DNA of 64,000 nucleotides from Luteirhabdus salina (GTDB taxonomy: Bacteria > Bacteroidota > Bacteroidia > Flavobacteriales > Flavobacteriaceae), in the NCBI GenBank assembly GCA_025384855.1, contig JALAHT010000001.1, forward strand, positions 1,183,064 to 1,247,063, given 5' to 3'. Of the stretch, positions 10,943-43,643 are shown in pieces. Under the pieces are notes generated by a model. That model did not search any database. It saw only the letters and a list, made by a program, of their open reading frames with translations, and was not told the DNA's origin. A program made the translations under genes and the position numbers. The first letter of the stretch is position 1, and the number at the start of each line of letters is the position of its first letter.

Positions 10943-10974
10943 TGCCGAGGAAGTGCAAAGGTCGTTATTTTTTT

Positions 10975-11007
10975 AGACCCACAGAGTATTCAAAACCCTG
11001 CGGGTCT
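10975..11007. repeat. Imperfect palindrome AGACCC...GGGTCT between helicase and pdeM
   Basis: AGACCC-a-CAG (10975-10984) pairs with CTG-c-GGGTCT (10998-11007), one mismatch, loop AGTATTCAAAACC. It is flanked by T-rich tracts on the plus strand. It looks like an intergenic interspersed palindrome or a weak processing/termination hairpin within the repair operon. Confidence 0.5.
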
Positions 11008-11011
11008 GATT

Positions 11012-13471
11012 TTATTTTTCACCCTGCAAGGTCATTCGTTTGATTCGATCCTTTAATTTTTCTGAAGAAAGTTTCTCGCGCAATCTATCGGTAATGATGG
11101 GGAAGCTAAAGGGCGTGTATTTTTCACATTGCTTCCAAACGATTTCCTGGGTAGCGATACGTTCCAATGCCATCCGTAAACGACCTTTCTCAAGCTGATG
11201 TTCAAAGGTCTCTCGAAAGGCTTGCTGATATAGTAAATTATCGGGTTCGTAATCGCGAAAGACATCGAATAGCAACTGACTGCTGCTTTGAAGGTGTTTG
11301 GTTTTTGCCATTTTGTTCGGATACCCCTGAAACACCATTCCGCTAATCACCGCAATGTCACGAAATTTCCTGCGAGCGAGTTCAGTACTATTCAAGCTTT
11401 TTTGAAGATCATCGAAAAGATAGTCGGTGGTGAAAAGGTTATTGTCAATTACCTGTTGAATGTCCAACGGCTTATCGCTTAAGAGTTCAAAGCCATAATC
11501 GTTATACGCTAACGAGAAGGTGATGGGTTGAAGTAAACTAATGCGATATGCTAATAAACTGCTCATCGCCTCATGAACGAAGCGGCCTTCAAAAGGATAA
11601 AATAACGCATGGTATCCTTCACGGGTTTTGAAGGTTTCAATCAAGAATTCATTTTCTGCGGGTACGATACTTTCCTGTTCCTGTCGGTGAAAAAGTTCGT
11701 GAAGTGCTTTCAATTCTGGAGTATTTCGTTTGTATTCGCCACCGCTTTGCAATTCTTCACGTAAAATAGCACTCATTTGTGAAGAGAGCGTCATGCGGCC
11801 ACCCATAAAACTCACTATTTTTGAAGATTTTTTCTTCGATCTTCGAACTTGGGCGACCATATTTCGCAATCGTACCAACTCTAACGTTCGCCCAGCAAAG
11901 ACAAATGTATCGCCAGGTTTCATTTTCCCAATGAAATATTCCTCAATGGTTCCGATAAAGCCACCACTGACGTATTTCACCAAAAGCATCGAATCGCTTA
12001 CGATGGTGCCGATGGAAAGTCGATGCATCATGGCAATTTTTCGACTTTCAACTTTGAAGATTCCTTCTGAAGAAACCTCAACGCGTTTGTATTCATCATA
12101 ACTTTGAAGGCTTTGACTTCCCAATGTGATAAAATTTAAACACCATTGCCATTGGTCCTCCGTAATACCTTGAAAGCAGAACGTATTTTGAATTTCAGGA
12201 AATATTTTGGAAGGTTTGAAGCCTTCACTTACCGCCAAGGTTACCAAATACTGAATTAGCACATCGAAACTCAAAAGATAGGGAATGCGATCTTCCATCA
12301 CTTCTTCCTTTACCGCTCTTTTTAGTGCGGAGGCTTCCACCAATTCCAGGGCGTGGGTCGGTAAAAAGTAAATGACCGAGGCTTCTCCCGGTCGGTGATT
12401 ACTCCGTCCGGCGCGTTGCAGGAACTTTGCAATTCCTTTCGGTCCGCCGATTTGAATAATCGTTTCCACTGGAGAAAAATCGACCCCTAAATCCAAACTT
12501 GAGGTCGCTACCACCGCTTTTAAGGTTTCATTTCGAATGGCCTGTTCTACCCAAAGGCGGGTGTCCTTTGCAATACTTCCATGGTGCATGGCGATTTCGC
12601 CGGCGAATTCTGGGTAGCGATTCAATATTTTTTGAAACCAAATTTCCGCTTGTCCACGCGTATTGGTGAATACTAAGGTCGTTTTACTCTTCTTAATGAT
12701 GGGAATGATTTCATCCAACAGATGTAGCCCAAGGTGTCCGCGCCATGGAAACTTTTCCATGGTTTTGGGAATAATGGACTGAACCTTTATTTTTCGCTTC
12801 CGCTTGGCGCGAATCAAGACGGAGTTTTCACGAAAGGCTGGGGCCATTCCCAACAATACATCCTGCGCCTGTTCCAGATTGCCAATGGTAGCTGAAATAC
12901 CCCAGATACGAAGCTCCGGACTGATGGTTTTGAGTCGCGATAGCCCCAATTCCATTTGTACGCCGCGTTTGCTTCCCAAGAGTTCGTGCCATTCGTCTAC
13001 TACCACTGCGGTTAGCGATTTGAACATTTTTTTATAGCCTTTGGAGGCTAGGAGAAGCATTAAACTTTCAGGGGTGGTGACCAACAAATCGGGCATGCTC
13101 CGCTTTTGTTTCGCCCGTTCTTTTTGAGGGGTGTCTCCGGTACGAATGCCGACAGTTAGACCGGTTTCAAGTTCATCGGCGAAGCGTTGGGCAGCTTGTT
13201 GAATTTCTACAGAAAGCGCACGGAGTGGGGTAATCCAAATAGCCTTTAATCCTTTTTGGTGCTTTGTCTTATACTCGGGATTGTCTTTTATGTATTGTAA
13301 CACAATCGGAATCCAGAGCGCATATGTTTTACCGCTACCGGTCGGCGCATTTAATAATCCGTGCTTCCCTTGTAAGAATGCCTTCCATGTTTTCCGTTGA
13401 AAGGGAAAGGACTTCCAGCCTTGGTCGGCAAACCAGGTTTCGGCTTTCTCAAGAAGTTCGGTTTGGGTCAC
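11012..13471 (-). CDS. Ligase-associated DNA damage response DEXH-box helicase (Lhr-like)
   Basis: An 819-residue superfamily 2 helicase. Walker A is APTGSGKTYALW, motif II is VVDEWHELLG (DEWH), motif III ISATIGN, motif IV LVFTNTRGQAE, and motif VI LQRAGRSNHRPG. A long C-terminal Lhr-type region follows. Lhr proteins are 3'-5' helicases on single-stranded DNA or RNA-DNA hybrids. Its start overlaps the ligase stop by 4 bases (ATGA), so ligase and helicase are translated together. The gene set is the established ligase-associated DNA damage response cluster. Confidence 0.93.
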   Translation of the reverse strand: MTQTELLEKAETWFADQGWKSFPFQRKTWKAFLQGKHGLLNAPTGSGKTYALWIPIVLQYIKDNPEYKTKHQKGLKAIWITPLRALSVEIQQAAQRFADELETGLTVGIRTGDTPQKERAKQKRSMPDLLVTTPESLMLLLASKGYKKMFKSLTAVVVDEWHELLGSKRGVQMELGLSRLKTISPELRIWGISATIGNLEQAQDVLLGMAPAFRENSVLIRAKRKRKIKVQSIIPKTMEKFPWRGHLGLHLLDEIIPIIKKSKTTLVFTNTRGQAEIWFQKILNRYPEFAGEIAMHHGSIAKDTRLWVEQAIRNETLKAVVATSSLDLGVDFSPVETIIQIGGPKGIAKFLQRAGRSNHRPGEASVIYFLPTHALELVEASALKRAVKEEVMEDRIPYLLSFDVLIQYLVTLAVSEGFKPSKIFPEIQNTFCFQGITEDQWQWCLNFITLGSQSLQSYDEYKRVEVSSEGIFKVESRKIAMMHRLSIGTIVSDSMLLVKYVSGGFIGTIEEYFIGKMKPGDTFVFAGRTLELVRLRNMVAQVRRSKKKSSKIVSFMGGRMTLSSQMSAILREELQSGGEYKRNTPELKALHELFHRQEQESIVPAENEFLIETFKTREGYHALFYPFEGRFVHEAMSSLLAYRISLLQPITFSLAYNDYGFELLSDKPLDIQQVIDNNLFTTDYLFDDLQKSLNSTELARRKFRDIAVISGMVFQGYPNKMAKTKHLQSSSQLLFDVFRDYEPDNLLYQQAFRETFEHQLEKGRLRMALERIATQEIVWKQCEKYTPFSFPIITDRLREKLSSEKLKDRIKRMTLQGEK

Positions 13472-26938: not shown

Positions 26939-28284
26939 AACCCTAACATTAATTTAGAGATGTAAAAAAATAGAAAGATTCCGAAGATATCGTTGCTCGT
27001 GGTGATAAACGGACCGGTAGCAATAGCGGGATCGATCCCACGTTTGTCGAGGATAATGGGAACAAAAGTTCCAATCAGGGCTGCTACGATTATGACCGAC
27101 AATAATGAAATTGCAATGGTGAGACTAACCATTTGGTCTTGGCCAACGACCAGGCCGAAAATAATCACCAAAAATCCTAATGCCAAGCCATTAATCATAC
27201 CAAGCCCAACCTCCTTCATGAGCCGATTGAAAAGACTTCCTCGTAAGGAGTCGTTTGCCAATCCTTGAACAATAATTGCGCTGGATTGCACACCCACATT
27301 TCCCGCCATCGCAGCAATAAGTGGCGTAAAAAAGAACAAAATAGGAAAGCTGGCGAGTGCCTCATCAAAGCCTTGCATGATATATACACTTCCCAAACCA
27401 CCGAAAAGCCCGAGTACCAACCAAGGTAACCGTGCTCGCGTGAGTTGAAAAATGCTATCATCGGCTTCAACATCTTCAGAAATACCAGCTGCCATCTGAT
27501 AATCGCGTTCCGCTTCTTCCTTGATAAAATCGACAATATCGTCGATGGTAATACGTCCGACCAACACACCATCTTCATCTACTACGGGAATCGCTTCCAG
27601 ATCGTATTTCTGCATGATACGTGCGACCTCTTCATTGTCGGTATGAACGGTAACATAATCCACTTTTGGAATAAAAACCTCGCTAATCTTGGTTTTTTCC
27701 GCTGCGGTAAGCAAGTCCTTTAGTGAAAGTCGACCGATCAGTTTTCCTTCTTTATCGGTAACATAGATAGAATGAACCCGCGTCACGTTTTCAGCTTGCC
27801 GTCGCATTTCCCGAACACAGCCGGCAACCGTCCAAGTTTCCTTTACGCGCACAAGCTCTTTCGCCATCAGGGCTCCGGCCGTATCTTCGTCGTACTTCAA
27901 CATCTCAACGATATCGGCGGCATGCTCGGTATCCTGAATGCTTCCGATTACCTGTTGTTGCACTTCTTCATCCAATTCGCCCATTACGTCAACCGCATCA
28001 TCGGTATCCATTTCTTGAAGTTCTTGTGCGATTTCTTCCGGAGAAAGATTGCTCAGGATACGTTCACGGAAGTCTTCATCCAGCTCCATGAGCGCTTCAC
28101 TGGTGGTCTGACTATCGAGTAGTTTCACTAAATAGGTGGCGTCCTCGAAGTTAAGTTCTTCTAGAATTTCAGCCACATCGGCGAAGTGAATTTCGGCAAA
28201 GGTTTCCCGTAGGGCATTCCCATCACGATTGGTGATGAGCTGCTCTATTTGCTCGATAAAATCATTTGTCAGTTGAAAGGGCAT
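26935..28284 (-). CDS. mgtE: Magnesium transporter MgtE
   Basis: A 449-residue inner-membrane Mg2+ channel. The N-terminal superhelical domain contains [20 protein letters not shown]. Two CBS domains follow (about residues 135-250), and then five C-terminal helices with [19 protein letters not shown], the [18 protein letters not shown] filter helix and [16 protein letters not shown]. In family members the N and CBS domains sense cytosolic Mg2+ and close the pore. Its start overlaps the rsmA end by 23 bases, an arrangement common in Bacteroidota. Confidence 0.96.
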
Positions 28285-29056
28285 GCTGTTCTATCTTTTG
28301 GGTGAGCGATATAAATTGCGCCACCGATAGTTGTTCCGGGCGTTGCCCAAAGATAGTATCTTCTTTCAGTTTATCGGAGAGTTCGAAGGATTTTAAACTA
28401 TTCCTTAACGTTTTTCGTCGTTGTTGAAAGCCTGTTTTCACCACTTTAAAGAATAAAGCTTCATCACAGGGAAGCTCATAATTTTTCTTCCGCCGTAAGC
28501 GAAGGACACCGCTATCTACTTTTGGAGGGGGTGAAAAAACGCCAGGTTTTACTGTGAACAGGTATTCAGCTTCATAAAATGCTTGTACTAATACAGAAAG
28601 GATGCCGTATGTTTTTGAACCCTCTGTTTCACAAATGCGTTGGGCGACTTCCTTTTGAAACATACCTGTGAATTCAGGGATTCGCTCGCGATTTTCCAAG
28701 GCCTTAAATACGATTTGGGAGGAAATGTTGTAGGGGAAATTACCCGTTACGGCAAAGGGTTCTCCATTGATGAAATCAGAAAGATCGATTTTTAGGAAAT
28801 CGGCTTCCTCGACGGTAAGATTGATGGCCGGCAGCTCTTTTTCTAAATAAGCGATAGATTCCGTATCGACGTCCAATGCGGTTACCGGCATACCTTTTTG
28901 AATAAGATATTTGGTGAGCACACCCATGCCGGGACCGATCTCCATGATGTGTTTATACCCTTCAAGCGTAAGCGTATTGCTAATTTTCTCAGCTATGTTT
29001 TCATCGTGAAGGAAATGTTGACCGAGATGTTTTTTGGCGCGAACCTTTTTGGACAT
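28262..29056 (-). CDS. rsmA: 16S rRNA (A1518/A1519-N6,N6) dimethyltransferase RsmA (KsgA)
   Basis: A 264-residue methyltransferase. Family motifs are [30 protein letters not shown] (SAM binding), [16 protein letters not shown] and the catalytic [13 protein letters not shown] (NxPY). The C-terminal [14 protein letters not shown] and [12 protein letters not shown] are also typical. It dimethylates two adenines in helix 45 late in 30S assembly. It heads the rsmA-mgtE-thioesterase run; a near-consensus -7 box (TACCTTTA) lies at 29076-29083 on the minus strand. Confidence 0.97.
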
Positions 29057-29222
29057 AAAGTTATGCTTTTGAAAGTAAAGGTACTGAAAGAAGAGAGAAG
29101 TTATAAGCGACTAATTATCAGAAAACAACGCCAAATCGTGCAGTTAATCGATTAAAACTGAATTACATCAAATACTTGTAAGAAATTACTTATTTATATT
29201 CTATATTAGCTGTCAATCAGTA

Positions 29223-29267
29223 ATGTCTGGCATTCTTGATGAGGAGCAAGCAATGCCATTCGAATAA
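29223..29267 (+). CDS. Possible 14-codon ORF MSGILDEEQAMPFE
   Basis: ATG at 29223 is followed by 13 sense codons and TAA at 29265-29267. The stop is the first base pair of the terminator stem, as is usual for the last gene of a transcript. The peptide is acidic, with no hydrophobic segment. Hairpin 1 of the RNA lies wholly inside the ORF, so the conserved feature could be RNA structure instead of peptide. There is no visible ribosome site, which is normal in Bacteroidota. Confidence 0.35.
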   Translation: MSGILDEEQAMPFE

Positions 29268-29301
29268 GCCCCAAGTTTCACTGAAACGGCCGGGCTTTTT
29301 T
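29266..29301 (+). terminator. Intrinsic terminator, plus strand
   Basis: AAGCCC (29266-29271) pairs with GGGCTT (29292-29297). An inner stem GTTTC/GAAAC (29275-29287) is separated by a small internal loop. Six T follow (29296-29301). On the opposite strand no U tract follows, so it serves plus-strand transcription. Confidence 0.8.
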
Positions 29302-29608
29302 ATTGCTCGCAAATTACTTCTAGCTCGGTTCTGAAGGCTACAAACTTTCCCTCGAACGCAGCACTCTGCGAACGCATTTCGTCAGCATCCTCTTGATAAT
29401 ATCTTTCAAGAGTAGCCTTGCTGTCGGTTCTGTATTGAACGGAATAAGTGATACCACCCATTTCTTCTTCTACTTGAACCTTGGTCATTAGGGCTTTTTT
29501 AAACTTTCCCGTATCCAACATTGCAGGAATGTGCTCTTTCTTCATCCAAAGAAGCCATTGGTCGTGAACGCTTTCATCAACATTAATCGTTACGTTATAG
29601 ATATACAT
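29300..29608 (-). CDS. DUF4286 family protein
   Basis: A 102-residue protein starting MYIYNVTINVDESVHDQWL, the conserved DUF4286 opening, followed by WMKKEHIPAMLDTGKFKKA. It has a ferredoxin-like alpha/beta pattern (dimeric alpha-beta-barrel type). The function is unknown. The stop codon lies in the T tract of the opposing terminator. Confidence 0.88.
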   Translation of the reverse strand: MYIYNVTINVDESVHDQWLLWMKKEHIPAMLDTGKFKKALMTKVQVEEEMGGITYSVQYRTDSKATLERYYQEDADEMRSQSAAFEGKFVAFRTELEVICEQ

Positions 29609-32188: not shown

Positions 32189-32218
32189 TTGAGCAACGAA
32201 ATTATAATAGTACCTTTG
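32189..32218 (+). promoter_or_regulatory. Promoter of the thiamine-binding/PnuC operon
   Basis: TTG (32189-32191), a 19-base spacer, then TACCTTTG (32211-32218) give a full Bacteroidota-type promoter. The predicted start near 32225 rules out a longer N-terminus for the first gene and supports the ATG at 32240. There is no TPP-riboswitch signature between promoter and gene. Confidence 0.7.
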
Positions 32219-43039: not shown

Positions 43040-43145
43040 TATATTTGTATTAGATAAAAAATCCCGTCCCGCATGGGATTTTTTTAATTCCCAACGATGT
43101 TGGAAGAATAAGTTAGTGCGTCCACAGTTGTCGGACGTGCTTTTT
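43040..43145 (+). promoter_or_regulatory. greA leader: promoter box and three tandem hairpins
   Basis: TATATTTG (43040-43047) is followed by a leader of about 110 bases. Hairpin A, ATCCC/GGGAT extended by A5/T5 and ending in a T run (43056-43085), looks like a complete terminator. Hairpin B is TTC-c-CAAC/GTTG-GAA (43088-43105). Hairpin C, GTGCGTCC/GGACGTGC with two G-T pairs (43116-43140), is followed by five T. Two of the three resemble terminators placed before greA. Confidence 0.6.
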
Positions 43146-43166
43146 GTATATTAAAATGATGATGAT

Positions 43167-43643
43167 ATGAGCAAAGTATCGTATTACACTGCTGAAGGAT
43201 TGAAGAAACTTCGGGATGAATTGAACCAATTAAAGGACGTAGAGCGTCCGAAAGCTTCCCAAGCGATAGCCGAAGCCCGCGATAAAGGCGATTTGAGTGA
43301 GAATGCCGAATACGACGCCGCCAAGGAAGCACAAGGCTTGTTGGAAATGCGTATTTCGAAATTGGAGGAGGTTTTGGCCAATGCCAGATTGATAGACGAG
43401 TCGCAATTGGATACTTCGAAGGTATTGGTGCATAGTACCGTTACTATAAAGAACAAGACGAATAATGCGAAGATGAAGTATAAACTGGTAGCCCAAAGTG
43501 AAGCCGATTTAAAAAGCGGTAAGATTTCGGTCGATTCTCCGATTGGGAAAGGGTTGCTTGGAAAGCAAGTAGGCGATACGGCTGAAATAAAAGTACCGAA
43601 TGGTACGATAGAATTTGAAATACTCGAAATAACACGCGAATAA
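43167..43643 (+). CDS. greA: Transcription elongation factor GreA
   Basis: A 158-residue protein of standard GreA length. An N-terminal coiled coil enters the RNA polymerase secondary channel; its tip SQAIAEARDKGDLSENAEYDA contains the acidic DLSENAEY motif that stimulates transcript cleavage. The C-terminal FKBP-like domain has VSVDSPIGKGLLGKQVGD-like residues. The long hairpin-rich leader suggests attenuation or autoregulation. The HIT gene starts 2 bases after the stop. Confidence 0.97.
   Translation: MSKVSYYTAEGLKKLRDELNQLKDVERPKASQAIAEARDKGDLSENAEYDAAKEAQGLLEMRISKLEEVLANARLIDESQLDTSKVLVHSTVTIKNKTNNAKMKYKLVAQSEADLKSGKISVDSPIGKGLLGKQVGDTAEIKVPNGTIEFEILEITRE

Follow-up and report, generated by a model that had tools for sequence, protein, structure and literature searches.

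The rsmA-DUF4286 spacer and its predicted features

The window analyzed, a stretch of 64,000 nucleotides, comes from a marine Luteirhabdus-like bacterium, the genus Luteirhabdus having been described in PMC8590676. The features considered are collected in Table 1. Between rsmA/ksgA and the DUF4286 gene lies a spacer of 243 nt (29057-29299), which contains a predicted hairpin and terminator unit. For about 5 kb to the left of the spacer every gene is on the minus strand, and to the right the nearest plausible plus-strand gene begins near 32189, leaving the terminator with no plus-strand gene to serve. The position and the context that an earlier note on this DNA had given for a plus-strand terminator, set between two minus-strand genes and without a plus-strand gene of its own, are both confirmed. 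The T-run of the terminator (six T, 29296-29301) overlaps the stop codon of DUF4286 (29300-29302, minus strand), and downstream of DUF4286 the terminator hairpin is thus also the structure that comes first. The same spacer further contains, near 29083 on the minus strand, a weak promoter-like site (TACCTTTA) for rsmA.

Table 1. Positions of the annotated and predicted features in the window
Feature	Position	Strand	Basis
rsmA/ksgA, 16S rRNA adenine dimethyltransferase	28262-29056	minus	Pfam PF00398, E 7.8e-50
Promoter-like element: TTG, 23-nt spacer, TATATTAG	29176-29178 and 29202-29209	plus	consensus TAnnTTTG
Candidate noncoding transcript, ~87 nt	29214-29300	plus	inferred from promoter-like element and terminator
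14-codon frame MSGILDEEQAMPFE*, unsupported as a gene	ATG 29223, end 29267	plus	
Hairpin, 11 pairs and one bulge, 8-nt loop AUGAGGAG	29228-29258	plus	RNA folding
Intrinsic terminator	29266-29301	plus	RNA folding; orphan context; T-tract polarity
DUF4286 gene	29300-29608	minus	Pfam PF14114, E 2e-37
greA leader	43040-43166	plus	
greA	43167-43643	plus	

RNA folding of the plus strand from 29195 to 29303 returned the same two hairpins together with a small 5' stem, at -30.2 kcal/mol (z -2.6), an energy equaled by 2 of 200 shuffles; the minus-strand fold is less exceptional (z -1.3). The upstream hairpin is formed by the arms TGGCATTCTTG (29228-29238) and CAAG-c-AATGCCA (29247-29258) around the loop ATGAGGAG (29239-29246). 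In the terminator, an outer stem of AAGCCC/GGGCTT (29266-29271/29292-29297) is accompanied by an inner stem of GTTTC/GAAAC. The hairpin with an eight-base loop and the 14-codon frame opened by the ATG, both described in the earlier note, agree with the sequence and with the predicted fold. The stability of the upstream hairpin was matched in just 6 of 300 shuffles, but 41% of the intergenic strands that have no gene ahead of them contain an equally stable hairpin. A simple terminator scanner missed the terminator, probably owing to the internal loop.

The spacer was scanned with the Bacteroidota promoter consensus TTG-N17-23-TAnnTTTG, taken from PMC6847099 and PMC9723704, and gave one plus-strand match (TTG at 29176 and TATATTAG at 29202; 8 of 9 positions). 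This match lies at a sensible distance and would place a transcription start near 29214. Intergenic strands that have no gene ahead carry such matches at 1.6 per kb, about 0.4 being expected in the spacer, and against this background the match constitutes weak evidence.

Terminator polarity against the genome baseline

Baselines for terminators and for sequence identity were drawn from 400 kb of each of two genomes, an orphan context meaning that neither flanking gene shares the strand of the hairpin. There are 28 orphan terminator-like hairpins in 400 kb, 27 of them besides the one studied here, compared with 42 that follow same-strand genes over the same total length of spacer. The gene caller used for the baseline was crude and some orphans are misfiled; at least 2 of the 28 (43059 and 43115) are really terminators of the greA leader, misfiled because the gene caller chose a spurious antisense open reading frame over greA. 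At the rsmA-DUF4286 terminator, T occupies 7 of 8 positions on the plus strand versus 4 of 8 on the minus strand. A T-tract clearly favoring the orphan strand was observed for only 3 of the 20 orphan hairpins with dG <= -10, this terminator among them. For hairpins that follow a gene running in the same direction, the mean on that side is 6.4 T out of 8, in a set that by construction requires at least 5 T. We consider the T-tract polarity, as read from the sequence, to be the best argument for a plus-strand transcript, and since the promoter-like element points the same way, a unit on the plus strand is plausible. The most strongly polarized of the orphan terminator-like sites is another one, at 10973-11017 on the plus strand, where a hairpin with a strong T-tract (TTTTATTTTT) is flanked by genes that the crude gene caller places on the other strand on both sides.

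Occurrence and conservation of the unit

The unit is also present in L. pelagi A3-108, the sole congener compared, in which the spacer is 245 nt long and 94% identical. Both promoter boxes are kept there, with two base differences between them. The hairpin carries a single change (C29256 to U) that converts a G-C pair to G-U and keeps the pairing, and the terminator stem has no changes. The two-hairpin fold is common to both genomes, which at such a distance are unable to show covariation either way. Over 400 kb the two Luteirhabdus genomes are 93.9% identical in coding and 93.3% identical in noncoding sequence. When comparing the unit itself (29208-29301) with L. pelagi, 94.7% identity was obtained versus an intergenic mean of 92.8%; 55% of 94-nt windows of intergenic DNA equal or exceed this value, indicating no sign of selection on the unit.

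A BLAST search over 299 family genomes gave no credible match to the unit beyond the genus, the 183 genomes with something at E <= 1 representing chance level. With a covariance model built from the source and L. pelagi sequences, credible matches among 149 family genomes were restricted to the two Luteirhabdus genomes, and no match was obtained in 17 near genomes. One extra match, in genome G017 (E 0.019 per genome, where about 3 would be expected over the 149), was rejected as an ordinary terminator that resembles the query only in that part. Of the conservation among near relatives that the earlier note had proposed to look for, the occurrence in L. pelagi is what was found, and there is none outside the genus by BLAST or covariance model. 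An already named RNA family, also raised in that note, did not emerge, as the Rfam search, including 6S and Flavo-1, returned no family at gathering score in the 64 kb and no meaningful match to the unit at E values up to 10. The idea of a repeat or mobile element was rejected because the unit is single copy in the genome, and three viral-contig matches to an exact 18-mer taken from the hairpin were judged to be chance given the size of the collection.

In most close genera examined, including Aequorivita, Altibacter, and Pukyongia, DUF4286 and rsmA overlap, adjoin each other directly, or have at most about 100 nt of unrelated sequence between them, in contrast to the ~243-nt spacer in Luteirhabdus. 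In Flagellimonas/Allomuricauda relatives and some other genera (L081, L085, L089, L090, L102, L027, L029, and L030) the DUF4286-rsmA spacer is ~380-400 nt. These larger spacers appear to hold a small gene with a translation near 'YLFTYGTLQD...', gamma-glutamylcyclotransferase-like by eye, which suggests that the DUF4286-rsmA junction is a recurrent insertion point.

Interpretation of the candidate plus-strand unit

The reading we favor, tentatively and with not quite even confidence, is that the rsmA-DUF4286 spacer contains a genus-restricted orphan transcription unit yielding a short noncoding RNA rather than an mRNA. From the sequence, the predicted structure, the terminator polarity, and the occurrence in two genomes, we infer that RNA polymerase may initiate near 29214 at the weak promoter of Bacteroidota type (TTG/TATATTAG) and stop at the terminator, giving an RNA of about 87 nt that would fold into one stem-loop with the purine-rich loop AUGAGGAG. 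If such an RNA were functional, the likeliest modes would be base-pairing, either via the open loop or via the 5' part that is left unpaired, or cis-antisense action on a read-through DUF4286-rsmA mRNA, which would contain the full complement of the candidate RNA. A selected function takes only a minority share of the short-transcript reading. It is rather improbable that a functional sRNA was born de novo in Luteirhabdus when the DUF4286-rsmA overlap was opened by ~243 bp, controlling rsmA/DUF4286 read-through or, via the GAGGAG loop, distant mRNAs. In a search of the genome for targets of the loop sequence, complements with one mismatch occurred at chance number and none was better. A near-match in an Rrf2-like gene, present in both genomes, was discarded since it has the same sense as the RNA and so is not a target. 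The RNA is a modest and unproven candidate, and a small structured RNA on the plus strand is plausible. The earlier note had taken either a micropeptide gene or a regulatory RNA to be implied. The RNA part keeps its plausibility from the T-tract polarity and the promoter-like element, and "implied" is too strong a word for a unit that lacks relatives beyond the genus, is not unusually conserved within it, has a promoter match at the rate expected by chance, and shares its orphan context with 27 other hairpins in 400 kb.

Units of this kind have been mapped elsewhere in the phylum. In Flavobacterium psychrophilum, 85 independent transcribed regions were reported, typically short and noncoding (PMC9723704), and in Bacteroides thetaiotaomicron 49 terminator-ended intergenic sRNAs, 27 of them strain-specific (PMC7366714). 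Going by these maps, short orphan RNAs limited to one lineage are commonplace in the phylum, and the Luteirhabdus unit, even if real, is of a known sort. Like the F. psychrophilum regions (the Rfp sRNAs; PMC9723704), it would be a short and noncoding unit of narrow distribution, intergenic in position, with a terminator and a putative sigma-A-like -7 box; unlike the Rfp sRNAs, which were found by RNA-seq, it is predicted from sequence and has no sequence relative. It also shares an intergenic position, an intrinsic terminator, and a putative phylum-type promoter with the B. thetaiotaomicron sRNAs such as GibS (PMC7366714), many of which are strain-specific. In contrast to GibS, whose 5' seed is open and conserved and whose targets are known, the candidate seed in our unit is a hairpin loop, for which the target search stayed at chance level.

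The main rival is that the hairpin is the 3' end of the DUF4286 mRNA, either a terminator or a stabilizing hairpin, viewed from the wrong side and without any plus-strand transcript. This is a distinct possibility that we nevertheless hold to be doubtful, and both it and an orphan RNA would be ordinary. The T-run would then simply be the A-run at the DUF4286 stop codon, read on the complementary strand. As in bidirectional or shared gene-end terminators, the hairpin directly follows the DUF4286 stop codon, the stem beginning within 3 nt of it, which is the best argument for a shared hairpin. Most of the 28 orphan hairpins in the baseline are no more than ~60 nt away from where the opposing gene ends, which is where hairpins serving both strands should lie, and once the overlap was lost in the genus, DUF4286 and rsmA could become separate units. 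However, unlike in shared gene-end terminators, only the strand opposite DUF4286 has a strong T-tract; on the minus strand the tail, UUAUUCG here and UUAAUUCG in L. pelagi, makes a poor U-tract.

It is unlikely, though less so than the de novo origin of a functional sRNA, that the terminator is an insulator. In that role it would keep DUF4286 free of antisense transcription arising within the spacer on the divergent side of the rsmA promoter, and the short RNA would be a by-product. Position and polarity would fit exactly, as the terminator occupies the last possible place ahead of the DUF4286 coding region, and there is a precedent in F. psychrophilum, in which antisense RNAs overlap 12% of genes and mostly result from imperfect termination or non-canonical starts (PMC9723704). 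By sequence an insulator is indistinguishable from the orphan RNA unit that we favor, and the readings shade into each other, as a short RNA would be made by an insulator too; against it, gene 3' ends in the source genome do not generally carry such terminators.

A 14-residue peptide gene, proposed in the earlier note from the ATG-opened frame at 29223-29267, is very improbable and not supported: in L. pelagi an inserted T (a 1-nt indel) turns the stop TAA to TTA and the frame runs on to 20 codons (MYGILDEEQAMSFELSPKFH*), both in-frame substitutions (S2Y and P12S) are nonsynonymous with none synonymous, and the stable hairpin covers most of the frame. The start context, AGTAATG, has an A at -1; the Kozak-like A at -3 reported for Flavobacterium johnsoniae (PMC6847099) is not clearly present, weakening the peptide further.

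If the noncoding unit is transcribed, it would add one more lineage-specific orphan sRNA to the Flavobacteriaceae, a family with few mapped sRNAs, and, as a dated case, would show a transcription unit arising at a newly opened gene junction. It would leave general understanding unchanged.

A terminator-like hairpin in the greA leader

The leader of greA provides a better and stronger lead than the rsmA-DUF4286 unit. It contains a perfect -7 box, TATATTTG (~43040-43047), followed about a dozen nt on by a terminator-like hairpin, AAATCCCGTCCCGCATGGGATTT, with T7 (43059-43088); a second hairpin with T5 (43115-43146) lies just ahead of the start codon. An Rfam search of the leader gave no match. 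At greA loci of the family and the order (Flavobacteriales), TAnnTTTG is found upstream in 26 of 30, and all 26 boxed greA loci also have an early terminator-like hairpin no more than 55 nt from the box, compared with 5 of 58 other boxed genes in 400 kb of the source genome. In layout the leader is comparable to E. coli GraL, the known greA leader terminator of that species (PMC6829880, which makes no mention of Bacteroidetes). Judged from sequence, the arrangement looks like a conserved greA-leader attenuator, possibly autoregulated by GreA.
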